NCBI GenBank assembly: GCA_028277445.1
Contig: JANQGG010000005.1
Span: forward strand, 1-64,000
Direction of reading: 5' to 3'
DNA: 64,000 nucleotides
Source: Chloroherpetonaceae bacterium
GTDB lineage: Bacteria; Bacteroidota; Chlorobiia; Chlorobiales; Chloroherpetonaceae
Below, in pieces: positions 12,184 through 45,626 of this stretch. The notes below the pieces were generated by a model. It worked only from the letters and a program-made list of their open reading frames with translations, did no database searches and was not told where the DNA came from. The position numbers and the translations under genes are program-made. Each line of letters begins with the position of its first letter. Positions within the stretch are counted from its first letter, which is position 1.

Positions 12184-12265
12184 AATCTGGGTGGTTTTTT
12201 TAAAAAAATGTGTTTTTATACTCACTTATAAATATAATAAGGAAATTCTGAATTGGTTTTTGGAA

Positions 12266-28834: not shown

Positions 28835-29347
28835 TTAAATGAACAATTGAATATCAGCGTCGGAAGCGTACTCTAAAAACATGGCCGCACCGCCAAAATC
28901 AACGCCATCAATAAAATCGTCTTTGGTAAACCCAAACACATCCATCGTCATCTGGCAGGCAATGAATTTTACGCCAACTTCCTGGCATAATTCACGCAAT
29001 TCTTCAACAGTTGCTACGCCTTTGTTTTTAAACGTCTTTTTCATCATGCTGGTAGCCATGGTATTGAAACCAGGCGTATTACCGGAAATAAATCTGGGGA
29101 TAGACCAATTGATATTTTGAAACTGATCAGTACCAAACGGCATTTTCATCGGCATCGCCGGATTTGTTGCCGGGGCTATTTTTGCTTCAACTTTTTTATT
29201 GAGCAGGGTTAAGCCGTAAAAGGTAAAAAATACGACCACTTCCATATCCATCGCCGCAGCTGCCGAAGCCAAAATGAATGGCGGATATGCCCAATCCAAC
29301 GTGCCTTGCGAAGCAATTAATGCTACTTTTTTTGGAGTTTCACTCAT
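28835..29347 (-). CDS. dsrE2: DsrE2-like sulfurtransferase
   Basis: DsrE/DsrF-like protein of 170 residues, the long DsrE2 type. It has the N-terminal KVALIASQGTLDWAYPPFILA and VVVFFTFYGLTLL strands and the conserved late cysteine Cys131 in KFIACQMTMDVFG, the probable persulfide carrier. It also has Cys121. DsrE2 proteins move sulfane sulfur between rhodanese, TusA and the oxidising enzyme in the cytoplasm; some are membrane-tethered, but no clear transmembrane segment is evident here. It is 12 bp downstream of tusA, the classic tusA-dsrE2 pair. Confidence 0.93.
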   Translation of the reverse strand: MSETPKKVALIASQGTLDWAYPPFILASAAAAMDMEVVVFFTFYGLTLLNKKVEAKIAPATNPAMPMKMPFGTDQFQNINWSIPRFISGNTPGFNTMATSMMKKTFKNKGVATVEELRELCQEVGVKFIACQMTMDVFGFTKDDFIDGVDFGGAAMFLEYASDADIQLFI

Positions 29348-29359
29348 AATGCCTATCGA

Positions 29360-29596
29360 TTAAGATTTTTGAATGTAAAATGTGTAAATATTGCCATCCT
29401 GGCTGTTTTCCATCAAAGTATTGCCGGTTTTTTTAGCCCAGGCTATGACATCGTTGGTTGAACCCGGATCGGTAGAAATCATTTTCAAAATTTCACCAGA
29501 CTGCATTTTATCGATTTGCTTTTTTGTTTTCAGGATCGGTAAGGGGCAGTTCATACCTTTGCAATCAAGAACTTCTGTTTCAGTAATCGTTGACAT
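29360..29596 (-). CDS. tusA: sulfur carrier protein TusA
   Basis: 78-residue cytoplasmic sulfur carrier. The catalytic persulfide cysteine is Cys17 in CPLP, and the fold is complete through GSTNDVIAWAKKTGN. In sulfur oxidisers TusA receives sulfane sulfur from rhodanese/DsrE proteins and feeds it toward the sHdr or rDsr system. First gene of the tusA-dsrE2-lipT-lipS-lipoate ligase operon; the shared 18-bp motif lies 136 bp upstream. Confidence 0.97.
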   Translation of the reverse strand: MSTITETEVLDCKGMNCPLPILKTKKQIDKMQSGEILKMISTDPGSTNDVIAWAKKTGNTLMENSQDGNIYTFYIQKS

Positions 29597-29988: not shown

Positions 29989-30405
29989 TCAATGTCCGGC
30001 GCCAACAAATCCGCTTGCGGCAACCACGAGCACCAAAATTTGTAAAATGGCGATAATCGCGTAGATCATGTTTTTTTCTTCAAGAAACACTGCTATCACT
30101 GCGGCAAGGCAAATAATCGTAACCCCCGAAATATAGACTATCGATGCAAAACTTAGAATATCCCCTTTTAGAATATCGGAAATCCATCCCCAGCCTGTTG
30201 GCAATTTAAACGTTTGATTTAATTCCCCTGCGCCAAGATGCCAATTGTGAACAATATCTTGAATAGAAACTTTTAATGGTAGTAGTTCAAACACATAAAC
30301 CGCAAATGCCACGGCTACAAACGCAATACCAAATGTAGACGTCCAATGCAGAACACGAGAATAAACAAGCTGAGAATCATCAGGATGCACGCGATTGTTG
30401 TTCAT
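29989..30405 (-). CDS. DUF1634 membrane protein
   Basis: 138-residue protein with three predicted membrane helices (about residues 27-45, 88-108 and 115-135), matching DUF1634. The family is typically encoded beside TauE/SafE-type exporters, as here: its ATG overlaps the exporter stop by 4 bp. Likely an accessory subunit of the exporter; biochemical role unknown. Confidence 0.82.
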   Translation of the reverse strand: MNNNRVHPDDSQLVYSRVLHWTSTFGIAFVAVAFAVYVFELLPLKVSIQDIVHNWHLGAGELNQTFKLPTGWGWISDILKGDILSFASIVYISGVTIICLAAVIAVFLEEKNMIYAIIAILQILVLVVAASGFVGAGH

Positions 30406-31358
30406 ATTCCAAATCCTTTCAAAATGGCTCTTCCGCCGGCCAGCAAAAGCAAGGTGATGACAATTACCCGTACTGATGTTGTTTTAACTTTGGTTAGCAG
30501 TTTAGCGCCGATTTTTGTTCCCAACATCATCCCAACAACAGATGGAACGGCAATGAGCGGCAGCACGGCGCCTTTATGAAGATACACCCAAGCTGCTGCC
30601 GTATCATTAATGGAAAGCACGAACACGCTTGTAGCAACGGATACTTTTAAAGGTGCGCCTAACACAAGATTAAACACTGGCACATTAGCCCAGCCTGCCC
30701 CCAATCCAAACATTCCGGCCATGAATCCGATCACCACAAATAATACAAGCCCAACAGGAGTGCGGTGAATCTGCCAATCCACATTTTTTTTCAAAGAGTC
30801 TTCATAATAAATACCTTGTATGTGCAAAATTTGGGAGAGTTTATCGGGCTTATCAATTTCGGGAAACTCTGATTTTTTAGCCCGAAGCATTATTATGGCA
30901 ATAAAAACAATTGTAATACCCAGCGCTAATTGAACAATGTGGGAAGGCAATGCCAGACCTACAATCGCGCCAAAGATTGAACTTACCGATCCGATCAAGG
31001 CCATCGAAAGGGCAAGTTTTAAATTGGCCAGACCTTTTTTAAGAAGCGGTGAGCCGGCAGAAAGCGCACCAGCCAGCGCAACCATCAATCCGGCGCCTCT
31101 GACAAAATCCAAATGAAACGGGAACAGGCTGCTTACGATAGGGACAAATAACACGCCGCCGCCAACGCCGGCAACCACGGCAACCACACCAAGGCAAAAC
31201 GAAAACACAAAAAGCAGTAAAATCCAAATCCACCAGGCTAGTGGCTCAGCCGGCAGTGCATCGGCAGCAAACACCACTTCTGGCGAAAAAATCAAAAACA
31301 AGCCAAACACAGCAAATAAAGCTAACTGTGCTGACTTGTTACTAAAAAAAACATGCAT
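30402..31358 (-). CDS. TauE/SafE-family sulfite/sulfonate exporter
   Basis: 318-residue inner-membrane protein with about eight helices. The family pattern is visible in two related halves: AVVAGVGGGVLFVPIVSSLFPF-like near residue 60, and GFMAGMFGLGAGWANVPVFN near 215. TauE/SafE proteins export sulfite, sulfoacetate or related anions. Placed next to a sulfite-producing sHdr and a sulfite dehydrogenase, it may relieve sulfite load; that role is inferred. It is separated from soeA by a 253-bp repeat-bearing spacer, so it probably has its own promoter. Confidence 0.88.
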   Translation of the reverse strand: MHVFFSNKSAQLALFAVFGLFLIFSPEVVFAADALPAEPLAWWIWILLLFVFSFCLGVVAVVAGVGGGVLFVPIVSSLFPFHLDFVRGAGLMVALAGALSAGSPLLKKGLANLKLALSMALIGSVSSIFGAIVGLALPSHIVQLALGITIVFIAIIMLRAKKSEFPEIDKPDKLSQILHIQGIYYEDSLKKNVDWQIHRTPVGLVLFVVIGFMAGMFGLGAGWANVPVFNLVLGAPLKVSVATSVFVLSINDTAAAWVYLHKGAVLPLIAVPSVVGMMLGTKIGAKLLTKVKTTSVRVIVITLLLLAGGRAILKGFGI

Positions 31359-31611: not shown

Positions 31612-34464
31612 TCATTTGATATAAAACGTTTCTTCAGCCGGTCGTAACGGGCGATTAAGCCAAAGCGGACGGCGCAAGCCATTCGGGCCCGGAGCCGGGC
31701 GCGTCATCGCCAGCCATTCCTTATAGACTTCAAACGAACGCTTGGTATCTACAAACACGTCGCCATATCGATCATTGTCGTGGGCTTTTTCCAACCGGAC
31801 TTTCTGATGCCAGCAATGCATGCCGCTGATCGGGTCGGGATGCACTGGAAAGGTGATGTTTTGATGAACCCCGCCATCCGACCAGAATACGCGCTCGGAA
31901 TCAGGATCATCACTCTTATAAGGCTCTATACCTTGTTCTATGGTCAGTTTCCATTTCCCTTCACCTTGTCTTTCAATGGCTACGGTGTTATTTGCCCAGC
32001 GATTGGCCTGGGGATCTTGTTCTCTGCGCCACCGTCCGATATGATGTGAACAGGCCACCACACCTGGACGAATGGATTCGGTTACCCATGCCCGATTGAT
32101 ATGATACCCAATATCGGTATTCACACGAACCAGATCGCCATTCTCTAAACCCAAGGCTTGTGCATCTTCCGTATTGATCCAGAGTGGGTTACGATGGGCT
32201 ATTTCTGCCAGCCACTTGGAATTACCTGACCGTGAGTGAATCAACACCGGCAGCCGGAACGTTGGCACCAACGCAAATTCGTTGTTTGATCGGTCGATAT
32301 TCTCGGGATGCACATGACTTTTTATATACGTGGGAATTTTGTACTCCGGCCATTTCCAATCAATCATGGTTTTGGAATAAAATTCCTGCTTGCGCGAAGG
32401 GGTTGGAAAACCGGTATGGTTCTTTCCTTCCACATTTAAGCCAATAGCGCTTCCATTTTTACGAATGGCGCCGGTTTGCATATCAATCTTAGCTTCATTT
32501 AACGCATCCTCCGAAAGCAGTTTTTCATGGACATTATACACATGGCGTTCTACTTCAAACGCCCCGAATTTTTTCATGTATGCAAGCGGCGTTAAACCCA
32601 CCTCCAATGCTTTGGCTTTCAAGGCCGGAATTTGCTCAAATATATATTGATAGTATTCATTGATGGTTAGTTTTTCCCCTTCGCGGTATGGCGATTGGAA
32701 ATGCTTTTTAACGCCAAGGCTTCCATCCGGGTCGATTCGCCATGAAAGCTCCAACCAAAACTCATCTTCTTCCCAAACTTCCCCAACATTGGCCTGATAG
32801 GTAAATTCAACCGGTTTGTTTAATCGCTCGTGAGCTACACGCAGTACCGGCTGGCGAAACGCAATCCATTTTCCGGAATGAGTTTCGTAACTAACCAGAT
32901 CGTGACGTTCGGCCGAATGCCCCATCGGCAGCACATAATCGGCAAAGTAGGCCGTTTCGTTCCAGGTTGGCGTTAGCGCAATATGAAGGCCGATCAACGA
33001 TTCATCTTCCAGGGCTTCTATCCATGAAAATCCGTCGGGATACGTCCATACCGGGTTAAAGACTCTTGTAAAATATACATCCATCTTGCCGCGGCCTTCT
33101 TTGAGCATGTGCGGTAATAAGAAGCTGGGTTCGTAATGCGCCAGCGGGTATTCATCCGGGAAATGCAACGGATTCCAGAATTTATGCGGCTCGGGTGTGG
33201 TATGAAATGTCGGCTTAAATTTGTTCCATGCGCTTGGCGTAGTGCCGCCTTTTGTGCCAACGCTGCCGGTTAGAACATTCAGAAAATGCAGGGTTCGTGA
33301 TACTGCCCAGCCTCCCAAATTGCCACTGCTGGCACTGCGCCAGACATGTGTAGCAAAACGCTCACCAGCCTCGCCAATTTGGCGCGCAACATCAATTACG
33401 GTTTGGGCCGGTACGCCGCTTTCCTGCTCGGCAAACTCCGGGGTGTAATGAGCATATTCCTGCTTTAACGCTTCAATAAAGTTTTCAAAGGTTTGATCTT
33501 TATCGGGATATTCTTCAGCGAGGTATTCCTTCCAGTTCACCCAGTTCTCTAAATACTTACGATTGTAGAGCCCTTCATCAATGATGACTTTTGCCATTGA
33601 AAGCATCAACGCCGGCTCGCTACCGGGGTAGGTTGGCAACCAGTAATCCGACATGCTGGCCGTATTGGAAAGCCTAGGATCCATGACGGCAAGCTTGGCG
33701 CCTTTCATACGCGCTTCAATAATCCGTTGTGCATGCGGATTAAAATAGTGCCCTGCTTCCAAATGAGAACTTACCAGTAAAATGAATTTCGCATTGGTGT
33801 GATCAGGTGAAGGACGATCAAAAAACTGCCAAATCGCATACCCGAATCGTGCGCCCGAAGAGCAAATATTGGTGTGGCTGTTATGCCCATCAATACCCCA
33901 GGCTTTAAGCACCCAATCCATAAATCCTTCATGACCGGGGCGGCCAACATGATACGCAACCTCGTTGTTTCGTTTCTCCTGTATGGCTTTTCGGATTCTT
34001 GATGAAATATCATCCAAAACATCATCCCAGCTTACGCGCTCCCACTTACCGCTCCCCCTTGGGCCAACGCGCTTCATGGGATATAAAATGCGGTCGGTGT
34101 CTTCTATTTGATTGATGGTTGCCGGACCTTTGGCGCAATTGCGACCGCGGCTTGCCGGATGATAAGGATTGCCGACAAACTTTTTGATGGTCATCGTTTC
34201 TTTATCAATATAAGCAAGCAGCCCGCACCCCGCCTCGCAATTAAAGCAGGAGGTTGGAACCAGCATATATTCACGCTTTTTTTTCTCCGGCCAGCTTTTT
34301 GAATCGTATTCCACCCAGCTATCCCATTGCTCCTCCGGTGGAAATTTTGATGCTTCTAAGAGTGGTTTGTGATCCGATTCCCCATCTACCTGATGGAGAT
34401 TTGGCACAAGCTTAACAGACTCAGCAACTTTCTCTATGATGGATGGCTGATGTTTATAAGTCAT
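31612..34464 (-). CDS. soeA: sulfite dehydrogenase molybdopterin subunit (SoeA-like)
   Basis: Large catalytic subunit of a cytoplasmic sulfite-oxidising enzyme of the DMSO-reductase/CISM family, 950 residues. The N-terminal [4Fe-4S] site is C73-x2-C76-x3-C80-x29-C110; a candidate Mo ligand is Cys201 in TNICSSG. There is no twin-arginine signal, which fits the cytoplasmic SoeABC rather than periplasmic relatives. It lies 13 bp after a fused SoeB-SoeC gene and at the end of the sHdr operon, where sulfite would be produced. Polysulfide or tetrathionate reductase subunits are the alternative within the family; context favours sulfite. Confidence 0.87.
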   Translation of the reverse strand: MTYKHQPSIIEKVAESVKLVPNLHQVDGESDHKPLLEASKFPPEEQWDSWVEYDSKSWPEKKKREYMLVPTSCFNCEAGCGLLAYIDKETMTIKKFVGNPYHPASRGRNCAKGPATINQIEDTDRILYPMKRVGPRGSGKWERVSWDDVLDDISSRIRKAIQEKRNNEVAYHVGRPGHEGFMDWVLKAWGIDGHNSHTNICSSGARFGYAIWQFFDRPSPDHTNAKFILLVSSHLEAGHYFNPHAQRIIEARMKGAKLAVMDPRLSNTASMSDYWLPTYPGSEPALMLSMAKVIIDEGLYNRKYLENWVNWKEYLAEEYPDKDQTFENFIEALKQEYAHYTPEFAEQESGVPAQTVIDVARQIGEAGERFATHVWRSASSGNLGGWAVSRTLHFLNVLTGSVGTKGGTTPSAWNKFKPTFHTTPEPHKFWNPLHFPDEYPLAHYEPSFLLPHMLKEGRGKMDVYFTRVFNPVWTYPDGFSWIEALEDESLIGLHIALTPTWNETAYFADYVLPMGHSAERHDLVSYETHSGKWIAFRQPVLRVAHERLNKPVEFTYQANVGEVWEEDEFWLELSWRIDPDGSLGVKKHFQSPYREGEKLTINEYYQYIFEQIPALKAKALEVGLTPLAYMKKFGAFEVERHVYNVHEKLLSEDALNEAKIDMQTGAIRKNGSAIGLNVEGKNHTGFPTPSRKQEFYSKTMIDWKWPEYKIPTYIKSHVHPENIDRSNNEFALVPTFRLPVLIHSRSGNSKWLAEIAHRNPLWINTEDAQALGLENGDLVRVNTDIGYHINRAWVTESIRPGVVACSHHIGRWRREQDPQANRWANNTVAIERQGEGKWKLTIEQGIEPYKSDDPDSERVFWSDGGVHQNITFPVHPDPISGMHCWHQKVRLEKAHDNDRYGDVFVDTKRSFEVYKEWLAMTRPAPGPNGLRRPLWLNRPLRPAEETFYIK

Positions 34465-34477
34465 AACATGTACATAT

Positions 34478-36031
34478 TTAGCTTAACGAGATTAACTGCG
34501 GCGCTTTCACCCAGATTTTTTCAGTAATCCATGCGCCAATCAGAATCAAAACTGCTGCTGCCATTAAGGCGGCCATATTTGAAAAACTTAAGAGAAGTAC
34601 TACCGGCAAGAGATGGCCCAATACCAGGCTTCCGAACCAGAATTGTTGCTTAAGCTCGCCATTGGTAATTAGTTTTGCGGTTTCTTCAGCTTGCTTGGAA
34701 GGGTGTTCATTGAATACCTCTATAACCATCGAGAGCAAATTGATGATCAGCCCGCCAACAAGTCCCCATTTCAGTAAACTGAGCGCTTCGCCGTTAGCTC
34801 CGGTTAATCCTAGCAATATTATCATTACTGCGCCCCCTATAACGACCGAGGTCACAAACATATGAAATGCCAGCAAAGGGCTTTGCCAGAAATCGCGCCC
34901 TTTTGCCGAACCAAACAGGAACGCTGTATAGACGGCAATGACAACGGCAATAATGGCCGATCCGGCCAAAGCCAAAGGCTCAAGCCATGAAAGATTTAAG
35001 AGCTTGCTTGCACCCCACAACGCCAGAAACAAACCGTAAGCGCTAATGGTATAACCGCCTTTCACCAGCCACGATTTAAATTGGGGTCGAAGCATGACGG
35101 AAGAAAACCGATCTGGACGGTCAAGGTCCTTAACCAGGAAAATGCCGGTTAGCGCAAGGAAAACCAATGATGTTCCCAGAACGCTCCATTGAACGGTCTC
35201 TGAAAATGAAACGGAAAAAAATGAGGTTATTAAAAATAGCGCAAGAATTACGCCTGAGGATATGGCTTTTGTCCATATGTATGCCGGCACTTCCCATCCC
35301 CAAACCACGCCTTTCGACGGGCTATCATACACATTGTATGTTTCGGTGTGTTTATTGGTACTTGCCAACCCGTTTTTATGATGGCCGTTACCGGAGTGTC
35401 CTTTATTGACAAAATGCCCAACCCCTCGTGATTGTTCACTCCAAAGGTATTGCCCATCGGTCTTGATGTTCAACGGATTCAAAGACGGCCCATCGCCATT
35501 AATGTAAAATACATTCGGACGGGTTGATTTTTCGGCTTTGCGAACGCTGGTTTGCTGAGTTGATATTAATTTTGAAATTTCCGACTCTGAATCATCCAAA
35601 TCACCGGAAACAATGGCTTCCTGAGGACAAATGACTTCACAGGCCGGTTTCAGACTCAGCTCCATGCGATGCGCACAATAATTACATTTGGCTGTGGTTT
35701 GGGTATCGGGATCAATATAGACCGAATTGTACGGGCAGGCCTGGGCACAGGCTTTACATCCGATACATCGGCGGCTGTCAAAATCCACAATACCGTCGTC
35801 GCGTTGTTGAAGCGCTTCCACCGGACAAATGTAAACGCAGGGAGGTTCTTCACAATGATTGCATCGCATCACTGTAAAATAACGCCTGACATCAGGAAAT
35901 TTTCCCCGTTCCACATATTTAACCCAAGTTCTATTAACGCCAAGCGGGACTTCATTTTCCGATTTGCAAGCTACCGTGCATGCATGGCAGCCGATGCATT
36001 TTCGAGAATCTATAACAAAACCGTAGTTCAT
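34478..36031 (-). CDS. fused SoeB-SoeC: FeS electron-transfer plus NrfD-type membrane anchor
   Basis: 517 residues. Residues 1-~155 are a DmsB-like ferredoxin with four cluster motifs: C12-x2-C15-x2-C18-x3-C22, CNHCEEPPCVYICP, CIGCKACAQACP and CNYCAHRMEL...CEVICP. A polar, His/Gly/Asn-rich linker follows (~160-245). Residues ~250-517 contain about eight hydrophobic helices of the NrfD/PsrC family, including KDLDRPDRF, the quinone-site region of such anchors. It would pass electrons from SoeA to the quinone pool. In most organisms SoeB and SoeC are separate genes; here one reading frame joins them. Confidence 0.87.
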   Translation of the reverse strand: MNYGFVIDSRKCIGCHACTVACKSENEVPLGVNRTWVKYVERGKFPDVRRYFTVMRCNHCEEPPCVYICPVEALQQRDDGIVDFDSRRCIGCKACAQACPYNSVYIDPDTQTTAKCNYCAHRMELSLKPACEVICPQEAIVSGDLDDSESEISKLISTQQTSVRKAEKSTRPNVFYINGDGPSLNPLNIKTDGQYLWSEQSRGVGHFVNKGHSGNGHHKNGLASTNKHTETYNVYDSPSKGVVWGWEVPAYIWTKAISSGVILALFLITSFFSVSFSETVQWSVLGTSLVFLALTGIFLVKDLDRPDRFSSVMLRPQFKSWLVKGGYTISAYGLFLALWGASKLLNLSWLEPLALAGSAIIAVVIAVYTAFLFGSAKGRDFWQSPLLAFHMFVTSVVIGGAVMIILLGLTGANGEALSLLKWGLVGGLIINLLSMVIEVFNEHPSKQAEETAKLITNGELKQQFWFGSLVLGHLLPVVLLLSFSNMAALMAAAVLILIGAWITEKIWVKAPQLISLS

Positions 36032-36106: not shown

Positions 36107-36385
36107 TTAAGCGTTTGTCATGTCCTGATATGCTGCCTTTAATTCACTCAAGGCCGTTTGTCCGACAAAACGCTTATGTTCTTCTCCATTTTTATAAAAG
36201 ATTAAAGTCGGGATGAGTTTTATGCCTGAATTATTGGCCTGTTCCAGCCCTTGTTTCGTTTCCAAACTGCATGTTTCCAAATCTAATTCAGGATATTGCT
36301 GAGAAAGCTCCCAACCCGACTTTACGGCATCTCCACACCCGCTACATGCCGGATGTGTAAATACTATTAACTTTATCCCTGCCAT
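36107..36385 (-). CDS. thioredoxin-like protein
   Basis: 92-residue thioredoxin-fold protein with active site C14-S-G-C17 (HPACSGCG) and the cis-proline in KLIPTLIFYKNG. The start at 36385 follows the lbpA stop by 4 bp; a longer frame to 36484 would run into lbpA and lacks family similarity. A cytoplasmic partner for reducing LbpA lipoate, DsrE or a sulfur carrier is a reasonable guess, since thioredoxins recur in sHdr loci. Confidence 0.88.
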   Translation of the reverse strand: MAGIKLIVFTHPACSGCGDAVKSGWELSQQYPELDLETCSLETKQGLEQANNSGIKLIPTLIFYKNGEEHKRFVGQTALSELKAAYQDMTNA

Positions 36386-36389
36386 CCGA

Positions 36390-36851
36390 TCATTGATCAA
36401 ATCCTTCGCAGTGGATGCATTCCTTGAAGTTCTTTTCTTCCATGTAATTCTTAAAGCCATCGGTAGCGCCAGCGGCATCCACAAGCTCAGCCATATCGCC
36501 TTGCAGATTATCGGGCTTTAATTTTACGATCCACCCTTCTTTGTATGGACTTTTGTTCAACATTGGCGGATCTTTTTCAACCGTCTCATTGATCGCAATA
36601 ATTTCACCCGAAAACGGACTTTTAACCGGGCCTACCCATTTACCGCTTTCTACAGTTGCAACGCTGCCATTCTTTTTAATGGACTTTCCGATTTTTTTTG
36701 CTTTGCAGTGGATAATGCTTCCTGCCATGGATTGAGCGATGTCTGTCATCCCAAGCGTAAGCGTACCATCAGCTTCTTCCCTTACCCAAATGTTATTATC
36801 AACATGATATTTTAAATCGTCCGGCAAGACGCAATTATTGATTTCTGCCAT
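36390..36851 (-). CDS. lbpA: lipoate-binding protein LbpA (GcvH-like)
   Basis: 153-residue GcvH-fold protein. The lipoyl-lysine is Lys71 in VATVESGKWVGPVKSP; the ESGKWVG context distinguishes sHdr-linked LbpA from the glycine-cleavage protein, which usually has ES-V-K. A short Cys-containing tail (CIHCEGFDQ) is extra. In sHdr organisms LbpA carries the sulfur substrate on its dithiolane arm. No glycine-cleavage genes are nearby; sHdr, lip and dsrE genes surround it. Confidence 0.95.
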   Translation of the reverse strand: MAEINNCVLPDDLKYHVDNNIWVREEADGTLTLGMTDIAQSMAGSIIHCKAKKIGKSIKKNGSVATVESGKWVGPVKSPFSGEIIAINETVEKDPPMLNKSPYKEGWIVKLKPDNLQGDMAELVDAAGATDGFKNYMEEKNFKECIHCEGFDQ

Positions 36852-36870: not shown

Positions 36871-37245
36871 TTAATAATGAAGAACCAAATCACTTTCCAT
36901 GCCTGACCCGGTAATATGAGCGGCGCCTACAACCCCATCGCACTCGCTGATGAGATCATCTTCGGTCATATCGTGCAATTGCAACGCTGCCGAGCACACA
37001 CTCATTTTAACATCGGCATCGTAAGCATCTTTGATAAAATCATAGACGACCTTACCGCCCTCTTTGGCAAACAAATTTTCGGTTTCACCTTTTTTCATTA
37101 AAAGCACCCCATCGATCTGAAAAATAATTTCTACTTCATTATCCATTGCTGCTGCAACCGTTGCCATATAAAATGGCGTGGCGCATCGCTGTGGGGTTTG
37201 TGGACCTGAGGTCACGATTATGGTTACTTTACCTTCTTCAGACAT
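36871..37245 (-). CDS. DsrE-like sulfurtransferase (DsrE3-type)
   Basis: 124-residue DsrE/F family protein, shorter than the dsrE2 product. It has the VTIIVTSGPQTPQRCATPFYMAT N-terminus (shown in parts) and a conserved Cys84 in MSVCSAALQLHDM, the likely sulfur-carrying residue; Cys21 is also present. It is 19 bp upstream of lbpA, in the usual sHdr context. It probably shuttles persulfide sulfur to TusA, LbpA or sHdr. Confidence 0.92.
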   Translation of the reverse strand: MSEEGKVTIIVTSGPQTPQRCATPFYMATVAAAMDNEVEIIFQIDGVLLMKKGETENLFAKEGGKVVYDFIKDAYDADVKMSVCSAALQLHDMTEDDLISECDGVVGAAHITGSGMESDLVLHY

Positions 37246-37319
37246 AATGTTTTTTTAGTTTGAATTGATTTAATCGTTATCGTGCGATCCGGAATGATTC
37301 GGCCATTACCCGATCGCAT

Positions 37320-39425
37320 TTAATTCAACGACACGTTGATCTTGTTTAAGTCGGCCTGGTTGTTTGTGCTTTTCTCAGCTTCGGCAGATTTTTCCGACGA
37401 CGCTTCTTGTCCATTTTTGGAATCAAGACCCATCGCCTGCCAAACCAGATCAACGATATCTACAGTTTGCATTTTTCCTTCTAACCCAACCGTTTTGATC
37501 GCATCCGAGAACATGGTCATATCTTTGGGGCAGGCCACTGCAAAGTATTCCACGCCCAAAGTTGACGCTTCTTCCATACGATTTTCACTGGGTCGTTTTT
37601 TAACATCTTCGTGATCGGGAATCCAGATTCTGCCGCCGCCAGCGCCACAGCAAAACGAATTGGATTTGTTGCGCGGCATTTCAACCACATCCACCCCGCA
37701 TTTTTCCATCAGCTCACGCGGCGCTTTATAAATGCCGTTATAGCGTCCGAGGTAGCATGGATCGTGGTATGTTGCGCGAATATCAAGTTTCTTCTTGAGG
37801 TTGATTTTGCCAGAGTTGATCATATCCAATAAAAAGGTTGAATAGTGATTGACCTTGAACTCGCCGCCTAGCGCGGGATATTCGTTTTTAATGGTGTTAA
37901 ACGTGTGCGGATCGGTGGTGATCACTTCTTCGAAGTTACACTCGTTCATGGCTTCAATATTAGATTCGGCCAACACTTCAAACAAACCTTCTTCACCGGC
38001 ACGGCGAACATCATTACCGGCCGATTTTTCCTTTTTACCCATGATGCCAAAATCTATGCCGGCTTCGTTGAGAATTTCAGCAAATTTTCGGGTGTTATCC
38101 AAGCAGTTTTGATTGTAAGACGCGTAATCGCCAACAAACCAGAGATACTTAACCTCGTCTTTGGTGGCATCTTTTACTTTAAAGTCGAGCGGCTTTGTCC
38201 ATCCGCTGCGCTTACGAGCCGATTCACCCAGCGAGTTGCCTTGTTCATCCAAACCTCTTAAGGCGTCGGCAAGCTCAGCCGGCATTTGAGCGTCAAACAC
38301 CTGGTTACGACGCATATCAATCAAGTCCATAATGGGCTCGTTACCGACCGGGCAAATATTGGCGCAAGCAAAGCACGTGGTGCACGCCCAAACCCCATCT
38401 TCGGAAATCGCATAATCGAGCAATGCATCTGCCGTACCGTTTTCACCGGCAAGCGCTTTTGCATTTCGGTTAATGTAATACCGCTTGTTGATCTCCAAAG
38501 CGCCCGGACTAAGTGGCGCGCCGGATTCATGTGCGGGGCACACTTCCTGGCATCGATTACACATGATGCACGCATAAGCATTCAGCACACGGTTCAGGGG
38601 AAGATCATTAAGTTCTTTGGCGCCCGGTTTGGATTTATTGGCCGGTTTCTCTAATTCACCAAAGGCGTTATCGCGCTTGAAAGCAAGATTCAACGGGGCG
38701 ATCATCAAGTGGATATGTTTGCTTTTCGGGAAGTACGGCAAAAACATCACGATCAATCCCATTGCCAGCCACCAAGCCACATGAATGCCAACTTCCAATC
38801 CGGCTGAATTGTAAAACAATGGCGCCACAACGCTGGCTGTTGGCATAAATGGGTCGAAATGTTGTTTCTCGGCCAGGTGAAATACCGTTCCCAACCAACG
38901 CGAACCAACATGTACTAAAATAAATACACCAACAATTAACGAATCGCGTTTGATTCCACCGGCAGCAACACCGGGTTCCAATTTTACATTGGGGTTAAAC
39001 TCAAAGGCTTTTGGCTTGAACACAAACCGGCGTATCAAAAAAAACACGACACCTGAAAGGACAGCCATGCTGAACAGATCAGAAAGGATATTAAAGGTTT
39101 GTGCAATAGGATTTGTGCTGGCAACCGTTGTCCATCCATGAACATAAGCTTCCAAAATATCATTAACATTGACTATCACATAAAAACTAAATCCAAAGAA
39201 AATCAAGGCGTGAAATGTACTGGAAACCGGTCTTGATTTTGCGATGGTTTTTTGCGCGCCAACATCCACAAGGGCTTTGATAAGCCTTATAATGAACTCG
39301 GTATTGTGTGCGGCCGGTTGGCCTTTGCGGACTATTGCAATCAATTCATTGAATCTTTGAAATGCAATAGCCCCACAAACAATAATGAGTAAAATAAATG
39401 CAATCTGTTCATAACTTGTCAGCAT
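37320..39425 (-). CDS. membrane FeS oxidoreductase, ETF:quinone oxidoreductase type (HdrD-like)
   Basis: 701 residues. The N-terminal ~240 residues hold about five helices (near 5-25, 70-92, 115-133, 160-185 and 208-232) resembling the nitrate-reductase gamma/HdrE b-type cytochrome domain. Two [4Fe-4S] motifs follow: C286-x2-C289-x2-C292-x3-C296 and CTTCFACANICP. The C-terminal half has the HdrB/D 'CCG' features (HDPCYLGRYN, SFCCGAGGGRIW, VACPKDM). It is 30 bp downstream of etfA; proteins of this kind beside etfBA move electrons from ETF to menaquinone. Its C-terminal ~400 residues are clearly paralogous to the 41313-42599 product. Confidence 0.88.
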   Translation of the reverse strand: MLTSYEQIAFILLIIVCGAIAFQRFNELIAIVRKGQPAAHNTEFIIRLIKALVDVGAQKTIAKSRPVSSTFHALIFFGFSFYVIVNVNDILEAYVHGWTTVASTNPIAQTFNILSDLFSMAVLSGVVFFLIRRFVFKPKAFEFNPNVKLEPGVAAGGIKRDSLIVGVFILVHVGSRWLGTVFHLAEKQHFDPFMPTASVVAPLFYNSAGLEVGIHVAWWLAMGLIVMFLPYFPKSKHIHLMIAPLNLAFKRDNAFGELEKPANKSKPGAKELNDLPLNRVLNAYACIMCNRCQEVCPAHESGAPLSPGALEINKRYYINRNAKALAGENGTADALLDYAISEDGVWACTTCFACANICPVGNEPIMDLIDMRRNQVFDAQMPAELADALRGLDEQGNSLGESARKRSGWTKPLDFKVKDATKDEVKYLWFVGDYASYNQNCLDNTRKFAEILNEAGIDFGIMGKKEKSAGNDVRRAGEEGLFEVLAESNIEAMNECNFEEVITTDPHTFNTIKNEYPALGGEFKVNHYSTFLLDMINSGKINLKKKLDIRATYHDPCYLGRYNGIYKAPRELMEKCGVDVVEMPRNKSNSFCCGAGGGRIWIPDHEDVKKRPSENRMEEASTLGVEYFAVACPKDMTMFSDAIKTVGLEGKMQTVDIVDLVWQAMGLDSKNGQEASSEKSAEAEKSTNNQADLNKINVSLN

Positions 39426-39455
39426 GACATTCTCCTTTAATTTATTTCATTAGTT

Positions 39456-40400
39456 CTAGTCAAGCTCATCCATCAATTCTTCGGTTACATCAAATAGATC
39501 ACCTACAATACCATAATGGGCAACATCAAAGATGGGAGCCTGAGGATCAGTATTCACGGCAATAATCGTGCTTGCACTCTTCATGCCTTCAATGTGTTCG
39601 GGCGCGCCCGAAATGCCTAATGCCAGATACACTTTCGGTTTAACTTTTAAACCGGATTTACCAACCTGGCGAGATTTCGACATCCAGCCTGCATCAACGA
39701 TGGGTCGGGAACAGGAAACATCAGCATTTAAGCTTTCAGCAAGTTCTTCAATCGCTTCAATGTCGTCTTTACTGCCAACGCCTCGGCCAATTGATACCAA
39801 CACCTGACTTTGGGTGATATCCACATCGGAAGCTTCAGGTTCAATCAAGGTTTTAAAACGCACTTTTCCAGCGCCTTTTCCAGCCGAAACATCTTCCAGG
39901 CTTGCGCTTCCGCCGCTTTTCCCAGTTTCAGGATCGGCTGAACCGGCTAGTACCATCACAATAGCCTGCTGGCTAACCTGAACCTGGCTGTTTAATTTTC
40001 CACCATAAAGCTGACTCGTACATTTAAACGCAGAGCCGGAAGCTTCGATGGCATTGCAATAAGAAATAATAGGTAGGTTTAATGTGGTACCAACTTGGCC
40101 TGCAATATCAACACCCATTGAGGTTGAGCCAATTAACACCAAATCCGGTGATTTATCTTTGATGACCGATTCTACAATTGCAGAATATTCTTCAGGATTG
40201 TATTCATCACCGGCATCAGCGGCCAAAACCACATCTGCAGCGCCTAATTGAGAAGCGTTCGATTTCATTGCGCCGAAAACAAGCGCTGAACATGTTCCAC
40301 CGGTTGCGCCGGCCAACTCACGGGCAAGGCCCAACATTTCAAAGGAAATATCTTCAAAATTGCCCTTTATATGCTCTGTAACAACTAATATGTTTGCCAT
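39456..40400 (-). CDS. etfA: electron transfer flavoprotein alpha subunit
   Basis: 314-residue FAD-binding subunit. The C-terminal FAD domain is intact: VSIGRGVGSKDD, CSRPIVDAGWM, RQVGKSG, YLALGISGAPEH and IIAVNTDPQAPIF. With EtfB it carries electrons from a dehydrogenase to a quinone-linked acceptor. Encoded between etfB and the membrane FeS oxidoreductase inside the sHdr operon, which makes sHdr the likely electron donor here. No dedicated acyl-CoA dehydrogenase is nearby. Confidence 0.97.
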   Translation of the reverse strand: MANILVVTEHIKGNFEDISFEMLGLARELAGATGGTCSALVFGAMKSNASQLGAADVVLAADAGDEYNPEEYSAIVESVIKDKSPDLVLIGSTSMGVDIAGQVGTTLNLPIISYCNAIEASGSAFKCTSQLYGGKLNSQVQVSQQAIVMVLAGSADPETGKSGGSASLEDVSAGKGAGKVRFKTLIEPEASDVDITQSQVLVSIGRGVGSKDDIEAIEELAESLNADVSCSRPIVDAGWMSKSRQVGKSGLKVKPKVYLALGISGAPEHIEGMKSASTIIAVNTDPQAPIFDVAHYGIVGDLFDVTEELMDELD

Positions 40401-40445
40401 AACTTTTATTGATTAAAAGGTTTTGAATTTCTAAGGATTATTCGC

Positions 40446-41195
40446 TTAAGCTACGCCGAGATCTTTCAGCACATCCAAAAGGTCTTTACCGGAATCCAGC
40501 ATTTTAGCGCCTTCGCCTTTTGGTGGCGGCGCTAATGCGAGTACTTCAATTGAAGAAGCGCCATTGGAAGAGCTTGCAGATAATGATCCGATTTCAGCAG
40601 AATCCTGGATTTGTTTGATTTTGCTGACCGGGGCATAGCGTGGTGGTTGCTCAGCGGCCTGAATACCAATAACAGCCGGAAGATCGGCTTCAAATTCAGC
40701 CATAATACCACCGGAATATTCCTTAAAAATGCTGGCTGTGTTTCCACTTACCTTAACGCCTGTAACGGCGCTTATACATGGCATATCCAGAGATGCGGCA
40801 ACAATAGGGGCCAGTTGTCCATCCCGATCATCTACAGACTGAACGCCTACCATGATCATATCACCACCTTCAGCTTTAGCCGCTTCGGCCATCAGTTTTG
40901 CAAATTGGGCGCTATCGGAAGCCTCCCCTGAAATTGCAATGGATTTCGCTAAGGTAGCCCCTTTGGCCAAGGCTGTGTAAAGCACTTTTTCGGAACCTTC
41001 ACCCTCTTGGGTAAGCGCAACCACTTCATCGGCCTCGCCTCGTTCTTTTAAAAGAATGGCTTCTTCAAGGGCATGCTCATCGTACTCATTTAGCTTGAAC
41101 TTGATTTCAGATACATCTAATGCTTTACCGGAATCATCTACCTCCAAATCTTCCACCAAATCGGGAACCTGGCGAAGTAAAACAAGAATTTTCAT
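40446..41195 (-). CDS. etfB: electron transfer flavoprotein beta subunit
   Basis: 249-residue subunit binding AMP or a second FAD. Family features are the MKILVLLRQVPD start, LNEYDEHALEEAI, and the signature VGVQSVDDRDGQLAPIVA. An AGAGGAGAAAG ribosome-binding site precedes the ATG. The 117-bp gap before it is the longest inside the operon and contains a strong hairpin. Whether this pair is electron-bifurcating could not be decided by eye. Confidence 0.96.
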   Translation of the reverse strand: MKILVLLRQVPDLVEDLEVDDSGKALDVSEIKFKLNEYDEHALEEAILLKERGEADEVVALTQEGEGSEKVLYTALAKGATLAKSIAISGEASDSAQFAKLMAEAAKAEGGDMIMVGVQSVDDRDGQLAPIVAASLDMPCISAVTGVKVSGNTASIFKEYSGGIMAEFEADLPAVIGIQAAEQPPRYAPVSKIKQIQDSAEIGSLSASSSNGASSIEVLALAPPPKGEGAKMLDSGKDLLDVLKDLGVA

Positions 41196-41256
41196 GGCTT
41201 TCTCCTCTATTTTATATAATAGTGAATGGTTTAAAAAATAAGTTTGCTATCGCCTG

Positions 41257-41288
41257 CTTGAACAACCCTTAAACCCGGGTTATTCAAG
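41257..41288 (-). other. intercistronic stem-loop before etfB
   Basis: A 12-bp stem (cttgaacaaccc with gggttattcaag, one mismatch) and an 8-base loop in the 117-bp gap between the C2-B2 gene and etfB. No T run follows on the minus strand, so a processing or mRNA-stability element, or partial attenuation, is more likely than termination. Confidence 0.5.
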
Positions 41289-41312
41289 AAAGCGTTATGG
41301 TTTTGTTGACAT

Positions 41313-42599
41313 TTACCCCTCAGGGATACATGCATTAATCACTTCAACAATATCCATGACTTCTAACTTGCCTTCGGCATTTACGGCTTTAACGGCATCT
41401 TCAAAGCGGGATACTTCATACGGACAGCAGACCAACAATACCTCAGCGCCGGTTTCAACCGCTTCCCGAACACGATTGGTTGATAAACGCTCGGATGTAT
41501 AATTGGCAACAAGGCCATCCAGCCACATCCCGCCACCGCCGCCACCGCAGCAATAGCTTTGCTCTTTGTGGCGAGGCATTTCAATAAATGTGGCGCCAGG
41601 AATGCTGTTTATCAATTCTCTTGGAGCATTGTATTCATCGTTGTGCCGACCGAGATAGCACGGATCATGAAAGGTGACTTTTTTATCAAATGATTTGGTC
41701 ATCAAAGCTTTTAGCTCATCAAGCCTTGAACTCAAGAACTGTGTGTAATGCGTTACATTTCTTGTGTTTCCGGTAATTCCGGGGTAGAACTTTTTAATGG
41801 CGTTGTAAGCGTGCGGATCATTAACAACTAAGTCTTTGTGAGGAAATTTCTCAAAAAGGGCATCGTTGTGATTGGCCAGATCTTCAAACAAGCCGGATTC
41901 CCCAACAAGTCGTTGCGAATCGCCATCGGTTTTCTCAGCTTCGCCTAAAATCCCGAAATCCACACCAAGCCGATTAAAAACATTCACCATTGCCAAAGCG
42001 GCATCATTACCACGACCATGATAGGCATAAAAATCACCGACAAACCAAAGCACATCAACCGACTCGCCTTCTTCGGCTTTAGCGAGATTTTTGATCGAAT
42101 CCTTAATCGGCTTGGTCCATTTGGCTCGTTTCCTGGCCGATTCACCCATTGGATTTCCATATTCGGAAACGCTCTGTAACATTTCCTGGATTTCATCGGG
42201 AATAAATCCACCCAAAACCGCTTTTTCACGCGCCGCAGGAATAATTTCACCCATATTCACTTCTTTCGGGCATACGCGAACACAGTTCTTGCAGGTAGTA
42301 CACAACCAGAGGTAATCATCTTCTATCAAATTTGTACCGATCTGTAATTTGCGGTATATCTTTCGCGGGCCATAACTTCCGACATACTCAACCGGACACG
42401 AACCCACACATTTGGCACACTGATAACAATTGTTTATGCTTTCAGCCCCGGGTATATCTCGTAATTGTTCAAGACCTGAAATATCGAATTGCGTTAAAGC
42501 ACGGGGGACAAACATCTTGTTCCAGTGCCCCGAAATATCCATTCCATCTACGATCACCTGCTCAAGTTGAACAGAGTCTTGATACTTATGTTCAGACAT
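41313..42599 (-). CDS. fused sHdrC2-sHdrB2-like (HdrD-like) FeS subunit
   Basis: 428 residues. Two [4Fe-4S] motifs occur in the N-terminal part: C58-x2-C61-x2-C64-x3-C68 and C100-x2-C103-x2-C106-x3-C110. An HdrB-like CCG region follows, with HDPCYLGRHN, SYCCGGGGGGMW and VCCPYEV. In standard sHdr clusters (C1-B1-A-hyp-C2-B2) these are two genes; here one frame occupies their place, directly after sHdrA. It lacks membrane helices, so it is cytoplasmic. Strong similarity to the C-terminal part of the 37320-39425 product shows a duplication within the locus. Confidence 0.88.
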   Translation of the reverse strand: MSEHKYQDSVQLEQVIVDGMDISGHWNKMFVPRALTQFDISGLEQLRDIPGAESINNCYQCAKCVGSCPVEYVGSYGPRKIYRKLQIGTNLIEDDYLWLCTTCKNCVRVCPKEVNMGEIIPAAREKAVLGGFIPDEIQEMLQSVSEYGNPMGESARKRAKWTKPIKDSIKNLAKAEEGESVDVLWFVGDFYAYHGRGNDAALAMVNVFNRLGVDFGILGEAEKTDGDSQRLVGESGLFEDLANHNDALFEKFPHKDLVVNDPHAYNAIKKFYPGITGNTRNVTHYTQFLSSRLDELKALMTKSFDKKVTFHDPCYLGRHNDEYNAPRELINSIPGATFIEMPRHKEQSYCCGGGGGGMWLDGLVANYTSERLSTNRVREAVETGAEVLLVCCPYEVSRFEDAVKAVNAEGKLEVMDIVEVINACIPEG

Positions 42600-42634
42600 T
42601 GACTTTCCTCCACATTAAAATTTCCATCGGATTA

Positions 42635-43681
42635 TTAATTTTTCATTGCAAATGCGCATGCTTTCATAGCTGCATTTCCACCCATCGAAACGGAATCTTC
42701 CAAATCAGCCGGTCCTGTTGAAGCGCCTGCAACGAACACCCCTGGCACTGATGTTTCTACTGTGTTCAGAGGACCACCGATTGTACCAATGTAACCGTGT
42801 GATTCTAATGGCAGATTAAACACACCGGCCATCTCTTTGGTACCTTCGCTTGGCTCCATACCGGTTGAAAGAACCACCACGTCCATTGGAATTTCCATCG
42901 GGCGACCCATGGTTGTATCTTCACCTTTAACAATTAGCTTATCGCCTTGCTTGGTAATCTCAGTAACAATACCTTTGATGTAATTGACTTTATATTCCTC
43001 CTGAGCTTTCCAATACAGATCATCTTCCCAACACCCATAAGCACGCAGATCGATGTAAAAGACAAAGACTTTTGCATCCGGTAGGATTTGCTTGATCTCC
43101 ATCGCATCTTTTGAAGCAATACCGCAACAGACTTTTGAACACCATTGATTTCCGATTTGGCGATCACGGCTTCCAACGCACTGAATAAAGCACACGCTTT
43201 CCGGCGCTTCGCCGCTAGAAGGTTTCACAAACTTGTGTTCTTTCAACATCTTCTCGGCATCCGTAAGCGTAATTACATCGTCATATTCATAGTATCCATA
43301 GACTTGCGTTTCCTCACCCGGATCAAAATGATCAAAACCCGTGCTCACGATAACGCTTGAAACATCAATGGTTTTACCGCTACCACCATTCTGAACACTT
43401 ACTTTCATATTTCCGGCAGAACCTTCAACAGATGTTACTGTGCTGTTTGTGATCACTTCAACATTACCATCATCGGTAACAGCTTTAATCATTTCACCCA
43501 TCGCTTCTTCGGCATCACGAAAATCCGGGGTTAGCGCAGCATATTTTTCTTTGATCGGCGTACCGCCCAGGTACTCTTCTTTTTCAACCAATACGGCTTT
43601 GCGTCCAAGATCCGCAATACCTTTGGCAGCAGCTAACCCGGCCGGGCCGCCGCCGATGACTAAAATTGGATTATCAGACAT
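42635..43681 (-). CDS. shdrA: sHdrA, FAD-containing subunit of sulfur-oxidising Hdr-like complex
   Basis: 348 residues with the start at 43681, where its ATG shares one base with the stop of sHdrB1 (TAATG). The N-terminal FAD motif is VIGGGPAGLAAAKG, and the later SVIVSTGFDHFDP and VFVAGASTGPADLEDS complete the flavin domain. The HdrA-type cysteine block is CVGSR, then CSKVCCGIASKDAMEIKQ. It is short and lacks the ferredoxin and thioredoxin-reductase-like extensions of methanogen HdrA, as expected for sHdrA. It is the electron-entry hub of the sHdr complex. Confidence 0.94.
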   Translation of the reverse strand: MSDNPILVIGGGPAGLAAAKGIADLGRKAVLVEKEEYLGGTPIKEKYAALTPDFRDAEEAMGEMIKAVTDDGNVEVITNSTVTSVEGSAGNMKVSVQNGGSGKTIDVSSVIVSTGFDHFDPGEETQVYGYYEYDDVITLTDAEKMLKEHKFVKPSSGEAPESVCFIQCVGSRDRQIGNQWCSKVCCGIASKDAMEIKQILPDAKVFVFYIDLRAYGCWEDDLYWKAQEEYKVNYIKGIVTEITKQGDKLIVKGEDTTMGRPMEIPMDVVVLSTGMEPSEGTKEMAGVFNLPLESHGYIGTIGGPLNTVETSVPGVFVAGASTGPADLEDSVSMGGNAAMKACAFAMKN

Positions 43682-44880
43682 TAAACATCCTCCCATGTTA
43701 AAAATTGTTTTTGACCTGATTTGATCGGGCCAAGAGATTCTTCAAATTCCGCCCATGCTTTATCGGCATCAATCCCCATTTTCTCCAGCAAGGGTTTATG
43801 ATCAACCCCATGCCAATGAAGCTGGCAAACTTTGTATGGATGCGCGCCCATGGCTAGTGCAGCAAACTGAACATCGCTCATGACCGGCAATCCTACATTG
43901 CATTTATGCGCCTTTGCGGCAAACTGACTTTTATCCAGAGTTGTCAGGCATCCGGTATCTTGTGTGAGCAGCAGATCGGGATTGGCTTCATCTTTCATGC
44001 GCTCAATCTTGCGTGTCGCAGCAAACGATCTTGAGAACTCACGACTGACCAGGATATGACGAAAACCAAAGCCACAGCAATCGTGCCAGGTCGAATAATC
44101 AGCAACGTTTGCCCCTAAAACATCTGCAATGGCTGTCATTACCGGGGTTCGTTGGCCATTGAAGTAATCGTCATCATAGATCACATCTTCAGGAACTAAT
44201 TTGTGATAATGGCAAGCGGGATGCACTGTTACGGTAATATTACTGAGGTCTAAAACTTTTCGCTCTGCAATTTTGTGGCGCATAACATGCAACCACTCGG
44301 AGTAATGAACAATCTCTTCAGGAAAAGCGAACGGCAAACCAAGTTTATCCATAATGGTACGAACTTGCTTCCTGAGTTCGGGGTAATGCAAGAGCTGCTC
44401 TCGGGTTTCTTTATAATGGCCATAGCTGGTTCCGCAATGAATATATGGGAAATAACCATCCACTTTAGCCTGTGCAAAATTCCGTACGGCAATGGCTGCC
44501 TGAGCCGGAACATTAGAGGCAGAAGATGCATAGTAGTTCCAAGCCGTGCATGAGGTTTGATCTTTAGGATCAAAATAATCCAAATTGAACTGGCGATGCA
44601 GCCAGAAAATTGATGTCGGGTATCCCGGAATGTGTCCGCATTGACCGCATGACTTATGATGCCATCCGCCTTGCAACGGGATTTTCTTTGTTCTTCCAAA
44701 TTTTGTCGTGACTTCCACATAGGGTTCAGGAACACGAATAACTTCCAACTCGCCTTGTTCTTCAAGCTCAAAAAGCTCGTGGCGATAGTCTACAGATTTC
44801 TTATTTGGCTTACGTGTAAATTTTCGCTGATCCAGCCCGATAAAACTGGCTGACTTCTTTTCTTCCACTGTATTACTCAA
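43681..44880 (-). CDS. shdrB1: sHdrB1, CCG-domain subunit
   Basis: 399 residues, longer than typical HdrB (~290-300), with an N-terminal extension of ~80 residues. Cluster-binding cysteines are in SCGQCGHIPGYP, SCTAWNYY and IHCGTSYG for one CCG repeat, and HPACHYHK, HDCCGFGF and DTGCLTTLDK for the second. In Hdr these sites bind non-cubane [4Fe-4S] clusters that act on the disulfide; in sHdr they are proposed to act on the LbpA-bound sulfur substrate. It is 17 bp after sHdrC1 and overlaps sHdrA by one base. Confidence 0.93.
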   Translation of the reverse strand: MSNTVEEKKSASFIGLDQRKFTRKPNKKSVDYRHELFELEEQGELEVIRVPEPYVEVTTKFGRTKKIPLQGGWHHKSCGQCGHIPGYPTSIFWLHRQFNLDYFDPKDQTSCTAWNYYASSASNVPAQAAIAVRNFAQAKVDGYFPYIHCGTSYGHYKETREQLLHYPELRKQVRTIMDKLGLPFAFPEEIVHYSEWLHVMRHKIAERKVLDLSNITVTVHPACHYHKLVPEDVIYDDDYFNGQRTPVMTAIADVLGANVADYSTWHDCCGFGFRHILVSREFSRSFAATRKIERMKDEANPDLLLTQDTGCLTTLDKSQFAAKAHKCNVGLPVMSDVQFAALAMGAHPYKVCQLHWHGVDHKPLLEKMGIDADKAWAEFEESLGPIKSGQKQFLTWEDV

Positions 44881-44897: not shown

Positions 44898-45626
44898 TTA
44901 ATTTTCTTCTAAAATGTTTTCAACCTCATCGGCTTCCACACCATACTCATCCATTAATTCTTCAATTGTTTCTCCAAGAATGTCATAAATACCTTCATCA
45001 ACTTGTTCAATCAGCTCTAAATTACCTGTGAGTTTGAAAATCATGTAAAGTTGGAACTTGGTTTTATCACTGACATCCCAAGCAAGTTCGGTTGTATGAA
45101 GGGTATCCGGTGGAATAGCGCGGCGCCAAACATCTAAATTCTCCGCCACTACTTTTACATTTGGCCCCCAATCGGGGAAGAAATCAGGTTGAAGCATATC
45201 CGGAGCCACCTGCGTTCCGGTCGACATAACCTTGTAAATAATTCGACTGTAAGTCTTTAAGGCATCCTTTGCCGATTCCAAACCATTTTTCACGGCTACT
45301 TCTCTCATAATCGTTACAATTCCACCCGGACTGTTTTTCCTTGGGCAACGCGTGCTTGAAAAACATTGCGAACAGTCCCAAATCATGTCGTTCATCAATT
45401 CGTAAAATGTATCCACATCTTCCCTGGACATGGTTTGTGTTATAACCCTAGGTGAAAAGTCACAGAATCGTGCTGTTGGACAAGCGCCCACACATACGCC
45501 ACACTCAAAACACCCTTTCATGAAATCTTTCCACCGTATGTCCTGCTTAACCTGATTAAATAGATCCAGCTTCACTTCGTATGGGACATCTTTGTATTTC
45601 CTATCCCGATAAATTGATCTAGCCAT
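44898..45626 (-). CDS. shdrC1: sHdrC1, FeS subunit
   Basis: 242 residues; first gene of the main sulfur operon. Cluster 1 is canonical: C39-x2-C42-x2-C45-x3-C49. Cluster 2 is unusual: only C85-x2-C88 and C94-P are present, with Ser where the third Cys belongs and one residue fewer before the last Cys. The C-terminus is acidic (EELMDEYGVEADEVENILEEN, in part). It passes electrons between sHdrB1 and sHdrA. The 18-bp motif lies 159 bp upstream of the ATG at 45626. Confidence 0.92.
   Translation of the reverse strand: MARSIYRDRKYKDVPYEVKLDLFNQVKQDIRWKDFMKGCFECGVCVGACPTARFCDFSPRVITQTMSREDVDTFYELMNDMIWDCSQCFSSTRCPRKNSPGGIVTIMREVAVKNGLESAKDALKTYSRIIYKVMSTGTQVAPDMLQPDFFPDWGPNVKVVAENLDVWRRAIPPDTLHTTELAWDVSDKTKFQLYMIFKLTGNLELIEQVDEGIYDILGETIEELMDEYGVEADEVENILEEN

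Follow-up and report, generated by a model that had tools for sequence, protein, structure and literature searches.

A type II-like sHdr locus without sHdrH in a green sulfur bacterium, with a predicted electron transfer flavoprotein route to menaquinone

Which acceptor receives the electrons of an sHdr sulfur-oxidation system? The question is raised by a 64,000-nucleotide stretch of a Chloroherpetonaceae bacterium (GenBank assembly GCA_028277445.1, contig JANQGG010000005.1, positions 1 to 64,000; hereafter, the window), in which the genes for an electron transfer flavoprotein (ETF), etfB and etfA, and for a 701-residue membrane protein stand among sHdr genes. The first-pass annotation, made from the sequence alone, suggested that sHdr electrons reach the quinone pool through the ETF rather than, or besides, NAD. 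We interpret the locus as a type II-like sHdr system for sulfur oxidation that lacks sHdrH and belongs to a green sulfur bacterium in which no dsrA was found, and consider it probable (about three chances in four) that its electrons are passed to a dedicated non-bifurcating EtfAB, then to an EtfD-like protein, and finally to menaquinone.

Gene content and order are established directly (Table 1). The transcription order is shdrC1, B1, A, B3, etfB, etfA, EtfD, dsrE, lbpA, trx, soeBC, and soeA. The genes etfB, etfA, and that of the 701-residue protein are intact minus-strand open reading frames (ORFs) with Pfam matches, contiguous with the sHdr genes and, as the first-pass annotation had it, co-directional with them. 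From shdrC1 through the DsrE gene the gaps range from −16 to 117 nt, with 117 nt between B3 and etfB, 45 nt between etfB and etfA, 30 nt between etfA and EtfD, and 74 nt between EtfD and dsrE.

This layout is already published as type II sHdr and is itself not new. Type II is defined by the syntenic occurrence of shdrC1B1AHB3 with etfAB in a single cluster (PMC11582611); Sulfobacillus hdr cluster II, with etf genes and a long six-helix CCG ‘HdrC’, was reported in 2014 (Justice 2014; PMC4378227), a 2018 paper described an sHdr group that contains etfBA (PMC6067878), and a 2019 proposal let electrons enter respiration ‘possibly via the ETF complex’ (PMC6776052). The window contains shdrC1/B1/A, the fused shdrB3, etfAB in the same cluster, and LbpA, and shares with Sulfobacillus hdr cluster II and Thermomicrobium roseum trd_0160-0142 the order C1-B1-A-B3-etfB-etfA-EtfD, LbpA, DsrE proteins, and a TusA-like carrier. 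It differs from them in lacking sHdrH between A and B3, in its green sulfur bacterial host, and in fusions of lipoate-assembly genes unlike the 15 other loci compared. Since the published definition of type II requires sHdrH, the window locus is a variant, type II-like without sHdrH.

For comparison, 552 confirmed matches were ordered by their resemblance to the query and the top 80, from named genomes, were taken, so that the set favours type II and its near relatives; the alignment behind the scan had three rows only. Here, 57 of the 80 loci were assessable, their sequence continuing for 4.5 kb or more beyond B3, and 23 were not. Both etfB and etfA are found in 55 of the 57, and all three genes in 47, so the sHdr–etf–EtfD neighbourhood is not due to chance, and the same etf–FeS pair, which the first-pass annotation proposed to look for in other sHdr genomes, does recur. 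Among the ten assessable loci without EtfD, eight end too early to show it, and two (L029, L032) have none of the three genes. Synteny of sHdr with etf extends across many phyla.

The host belongs to the green sulfur bacteria (Chlorobiales): their FMO protein is found in 13/13 genomes (its own and 12 relatives) and in 0/14 control genomes. No dsrA, which stands for the usual sulfur-oxidation enzyme, was found in the window genome (G000) or in its family-mate G001, five of the 13 genomes being positive, all of them of family f4 (5/5). sHdrB1 is present in G000 and G001 only, both among 41 genomes (own and 40 relatives) and in a phylum-wide sample of 394 at a cut-off of E 1e-60. In the HdrB1 tree these two are sisters (SH-aLRT 95) in a clade that also holds Marinimicrobia, SAR324, marine Euryarchaeota, Calditrichota, and Myxococcota, and lie away from the other Bacteroidota loci, a placement which suggests that the locus was acquired by transfer and not inherited within the phylum. 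Three records titled marine Euryarchaeota or Poseidoniaceae (L019, L020, L022) have sHdr loci nearest to those of SAR324 and Marinimicrobia, where binning errors are possible; in L019 and L020, etfB, etfA, and EtfD are present as well. A 2021 review describes the sulfur oxidation route of Dsr-less Chloroherpeton as unclear (PMC8232776), and sulfide:quinone reductase is the only such enzyme credited to Chloroherpeton in a 2019 paper (PMC6338057). With sHdr present and dsrA not found in G000 and G001, the locus offers a candidate and testable sulfur oxidation route for Dsr-less Chloroherpeton relatives. We found no literature account of sHdr in Chloroherpeton, of the EtfA and EtfD signatures given below, or of sHdrH loss, in a search that took in Cao 2018 by its main text, where C. 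thalassium is not mentioned; the species may be listed among the source data of that paper.

The EtfA tree separates 57 sHdr-linked EtfA from 18 other EtfA by a branch with SH-aLRT 100, a split established directly. The 18 come from 15 genomes, each with one or more EtfA copies besides the sHdr-linked one (of 21 places, 20 sequences were obtained and 18 passed the length filter). The FAD site of sHdr EtfA reads KSG...SGAPEH, as compared with QTG...SGA[IV]QH in other EtfA; in the window EtfA, KSG is at 248–250, SGAPEH at 264–269, and Ser129 at the position of LctC Arg205. Among sHdr EtfA, Pro267 and Glu268 occur in 56/56 filled rows, Ser249 in 57/57, and Lys248 in 55/57, whereas the 18 others have Gln or Asn at 268, Pro267 in one, and Thr249 in 17. 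At the LctC Arg205 position, Ser, Ala, or Cys is seen in all 57 sHdr EtfA, while the others have Arg (17) or Lys (1).

Bifurcating ETFs are characterized by the EtfB motifs DGDTAQVGP, RxFxG, and SPT, and by EtfA Arg205 at N5 of the beta-FAD (PMC9232219). The first-pass annotation had proposed to check EtfB for such residues, and none of the determinants tested is present. Residues 122–130 of the window EtfB are DDRDGQLAP, with 3/9 matches to the first motif; RxFxG and SPT were both looked for in it, and neither was found; thus, all four determinants are missing from the window pair, which is directly observed. The 64 sHdr EtfB match the beta-FAD motif at 1–4 of 9 positions, with RxFxG in 0/64. 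As the determinants are lacking, the window EtfAB most likely carries a single FAD and does not bifurcate.

The 701-residue protein matches the Mycobacterium smegmatis EtfD (PDB 9ojn, E 3.5e-83), described as an electron wire to menaquinone (PMC13083937), and is a candidate EtfD-like protein with predicted ETF-to-menaquinone activity. It has hydrophobic segments at about 7–25, 67–91, 113–135, 153–181, and 212–230, equivalents of the heme ligands at His72 and His239, cubane cysteine sets 286/289/292/296 and 348/351/354/358, and a CCG domain; both histidines and the eight cubane cysteines are present in 47/47 sHdr EtfD. Shared with 9ojn, FadF, and DgcB are the domain order, the heme b histidines, the eight cubane cysteines, and the His and four of the five Cys of the noncubane cluster D2. 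The ligands of the linear [3Fe-4S] cluster D1 (Cys503, 538, 581, 584) are replaced in the window by D433, S468, D505, and T508; all four are gone in 47/47 sHdr EtfD and kept in 7/8 other EtfD (nine regions taken, eight passing the filter). FadF and DgcB are likewise reported to be without the D1 cysteines, and are still thought to be ETF electron acceptors (PMC13083937). The earlier description of the protein stands for the heme-type membrane domain, the two cubane [4Fe-4S] sites, and the CCG stretches, and fails for the first CCG-type domain, which is without cluster cysteines. At D2, His507 and Cys557, 592, 593, and 632 are kept, and the Cys712 position is Asp635; here, Asp is seen in 46/46 filled sHdr EtfD rows, Cys in 8/8 other EtfD, and Glu, at the last D2 Cys position, in 30/30 B3 proteins. 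The long C-terminal tail of 9ojn is absent. By function, the protein may also be likened to the Syntrophus ETF:methylmenaquinone oxidoreductase, which links ETF to a menaquinone as a membrane protein with b-heme and Fe-S centres (PMC8805022).

In a tree of the soluble part, built from 30 chosen sHdr EtfD of 47 and 30 B3 rows of 72, sHdr EtfD form one clade (SH-aLRT 98), and B3 and the other EtfD each fall in a clade of their own; an origin of EtfD from B3 by duplication within the locus is not supported.

We also searched the 394 phylum genomes with a 24-base pattern for SGAPEH, which matched G000, G001, G180, and G384. The latter two have no recognisable sHdrB1 at E 1e-60, and SGAPEH is rejected as an sHdr-only motif. 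In G180 (L126 8134–18637) the order is etfB-etfA-EtfD-B3-like-HdrA, with MvhD and [NiFe] hydrogenase genes next, and in G384 (L127 4622–11358) it is the same as far as hdrA, with the same signatures. The G180 cluster, which includes an HdrD-like member, shows SGAPEH in EtfA and the EtfD ligand changes of the sHdr loci; it differs from the window in that sHdrC1B1A is replaced by a full-length HdrA, accompanied by MvhD and hydrogenase genes. Since both clusters carry SGAPEH, the signature, judged from sequence, marks an Hdr-coupled ETF and not sulfur chemistry as such, and the ETF–EtfD pair looks like an Hdr-to-menaquinone adapter. A broader reading, which we advance tentatively, is that EtfBA and EtfD form a distinct portable adapter of this kind (recognisable by KSG...SGAPEH and the lack of Arg at the position of LctC 205, by the loss of D1, and by CxxD for CxxC at D2), serving both sHdr and HdrA-MvhD-[NiFe] complexes; in Dsr-less green sulfur bacteria it might feed sulfur electrons into the quinone pool of photosynthesis, and in the window species would do so despite the lack of sHdrH. 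A 2026 paper notes that the Hdr-based pathway does not yet have clear genetic markers that set it apart (PMC13384644), and the residue signatures supply such markers for Hdr-coupled ETFs.

In the proposed mechanism, sulfane sulfur would be carried by TusA/DsrE proteins and LbpA and oxidised by sHdrC1B1A-B3, and family knowledge and gene neighbourhood suggest that sulfite would be dealt with by the SoeABC-type enzyme and/or TauE. The electrons would pass to the FAD of the dedicated non-bifurcating EtfAB and on to the EtfD-like protein, in which, by its residues and family knowledge, they may move from the altered CCG cluster D2 to the cubanes D3 and D4, to heme b, and to menaquinone. We infer the docking of ETF on sHdr, the direction of electron flow, menaquinone as the acceptor, and expression of the locus. 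The outlet to the quinone pool put forward by the first-pass annotation is well supported by the synteny, the EtfA clade, the homology of EtfD to a solved ETF:menaquinone dehydrogenase, the absence of bifurcation motifs, and menA, which is over the cut-off in the window genome.

Other readings of the locus differ in where the electrons go or come from. The ETF branch could be minor and the main outlet NAD+, e.g., via lipoate and a dihydrolipoamide dehydrogenase, as LbpA is present and lipoyl proteins can hand electrons to such enzymes; however, no dihydrolipoamide dehydrogenase was recognised among the scanned locus ORFs, and the etf linkage is near universal, which makes this outlet unlikely. 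Bifurcation or confurcation, by which sHdr electrons would be split at EtfB (or sHdrA) between menaquinone and NAD+ or ferredoxin, is quite improbable: HdrA-type flavoproteins do bifurcate in methanogens, and green sulfur bacteria need low-potential reductant, but a bifurcating identity of the window ETF is rejected on the four missing determinants, and neither the sHdr EtfB nor the residues at the Arg205 position in 57/57 EtfA favour it, evidence that covers the ETF, not sHdrA.

Slightly less probable still is a general or beta-oxidation ETF adjoining sHdr genes by accident. Although the best PDB matches of EtfB are ordinary ETFs (1o94, 1efp, 1efv) and EtfD homologues serve beta-oxidation (PMC13083937), sHdr-linked EtfA are apart from the other EtfA that their genomes encode, with FAD-site residues of their own, the synteny holds across many phyla, and a second etf pair is present at another place in the window genome (L010 8380–10185; G000 C38), beside a TRAP-type binding protein. 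The flavin-site residues and the EtfA tree reject such an identity and appear largely to refute the reading; grouping of Etf with beta-oxidation or other ETFs, named by the first-pass annotation as a possible refutation, was not borne out (57 versus 18). A reverse run, in which a membrane potential driven by light would raise the electrons of menaquinol so that they reduce disulfide or sulfite via EtfD and ETF, has a precedent, as the related ETF:methylmenaquinone oxidoreductase operates in reverse redox loops (PMC8805022); the oxidative-type neighbours (LbpA, DsrE, TusA, SoeA-type, TauE) and the failure to find dsrA in the window genome argue against it, and we regard it as the least probable of the alternatives.

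Several observations weigh against outward flow through the dedicated ETF and EtfD to menaquinone. One expected D2 ligand is Asp and not Cys, as given above, and in the full-length EtfD tree sHdr EtfD are not one clade, the non-sHdr EtfD L113 and L114 falling inside, although a single sHdr clade is not rejected by the approximately unbiased (AU) test (p 0.4). No further EtfD was found in the window genome, so that EtfD might also serve the second etf pair. The remaining points concern sHdrH and transcription.

An ORF of at least 237 aa, equated with ‘H’ by position, lies between hdrA and B3 in 71/71 loci with both genes, where the window has 35 nt, and an 18-row profile that was positive in 7/7 control genomes did not find sHdrH in G000 (99% complete). 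With a subunit missing that is constant in the comparison loci, the sHdr complex may be incomplete or altered; the absence lets the role of this otherwise constant, unexplained subunit be asked. An AlphaFold model of sHdrH (18 rows, pLDDT 88.7) gave no Foldseek match at E ≤ 0.001, its best VIA-align match was a DNA glycosylase at Z 8.0, inside the common-arrangement range of VIA-align, and Pfam gave scattered matches only to sHdrH proteins (E ≥ 0.011, one member each).

The B3–etfB gap contains a hairpin of −28.4 kcal/mol (0/200 shuffles as low), with a six-T run beginning 13 nt beyond the outer stem, farther than in a usual terminator, and the EtfD–dsrE gap (37246–37319) one of −17.2 kcal/mol (5/200 shuffles as low). 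These hairpins on both sides of etfB-etfA-EtfD could split the transcript. The gaps are thus short, as noted at first pass, and do not by themselves establish co-transcription, since hairpins flank the trio; a single transcript for the locus is plausible. In G001 the B3–etfB gap spans 475 nt and likewise folds strongly (z −7.1); in nine comparison loci it is at most 22 nt, measured by match ends. A promoter/terminator pattern scan, which was not relied on, gave fewer promoter sites than shuffles and zero terminator-like operon-strand sites in the gaps from C1 to soeA, and an Rfam scan of window positions 22000–47000 gave zero matches.

Table 1. Features of the sHdr locus and its surroundings, in window coordinates; identities are to family-mate G001
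Feature	Position	Strand	Remarks
shdrC1	44898..45626	-	242 aa, 4Fe-4S protein; 75% identity
shdrB1	43681..44880	-	399 aa, CCG domain, proposed catalytic subunit; TTG start uncertain; 80% identity
shdrA	42635..43696	-	353 aa, Fe-S flavoprotein; 73% identity
Gap at sHdrH place	42600..42634	-	35 nt
shdrB3	41313..42599	-	428 aa, fused C2+B2; Fer4 plus CCG
B3–etfB gap	41196..41312	-	117 nt, strong hairpin
etfB	40446..41195	-	249 aa; PF01012 E 2.6e-22
etfA	39456..40400	-	314 aa; PF00766 E 2.2e-33, PF01012 E 6.5e-31
EtfD-like ETF:menaquinone oxidoreductase candidate	37320..39425	-	701 aa; two CCG stretches, Fer4 domains
DsrE-family sulfurtransferase	36871..37245	-	124 aa
lbpA, GcvH-like lipoate-binding protein	36390..36851	-	153 aa; putative ESGK lysine, read by eye
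Thioredoxin-like protein	36107..36388	-	start set from reading the translation
soeB-soeC-type fusion	34478..36031	-	4Fe-4S plus NrfD
soeA-type molybdopterin oxidoreductase	31612..34464	-	950 aa
TauE-type (sulfite) exporter	30402..31358	-	
tusA-like sulfur carrier	29360..29596	-	78 aa, CPLP motif; named by eye
dsrE2-like protein	28835..29347	-	170 aa
lipT-like FAD oxidoreductase	27786..28826	-	named from position and PMC10332631
One-piece radical-SAM protein (LipS-type)	25674..27728	-	684 aa
Lipoate:protein ligase (sLpl-like) fused to DUF116	24128..25735	-	

The two halves of the one-piece radical-SAM protein match separate LipS-type genes of G001 at 35–37%, and the halves are separate genes in 15/15 other loci that have both. 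The identity of the lipoate-assembly genes to those of G001 (30–37%), as compared with 59–80% for the sHdr core, suggests that they may be of separate origin. Elsewhere in the window, a YoeB-type toxin gene (46193–46471) lies just upstream of the sHdr locus, and type IX secretion C-terminal signals are seen on proteins at 10741–12225 and 58429–62862, one of which has a subtilase domain.

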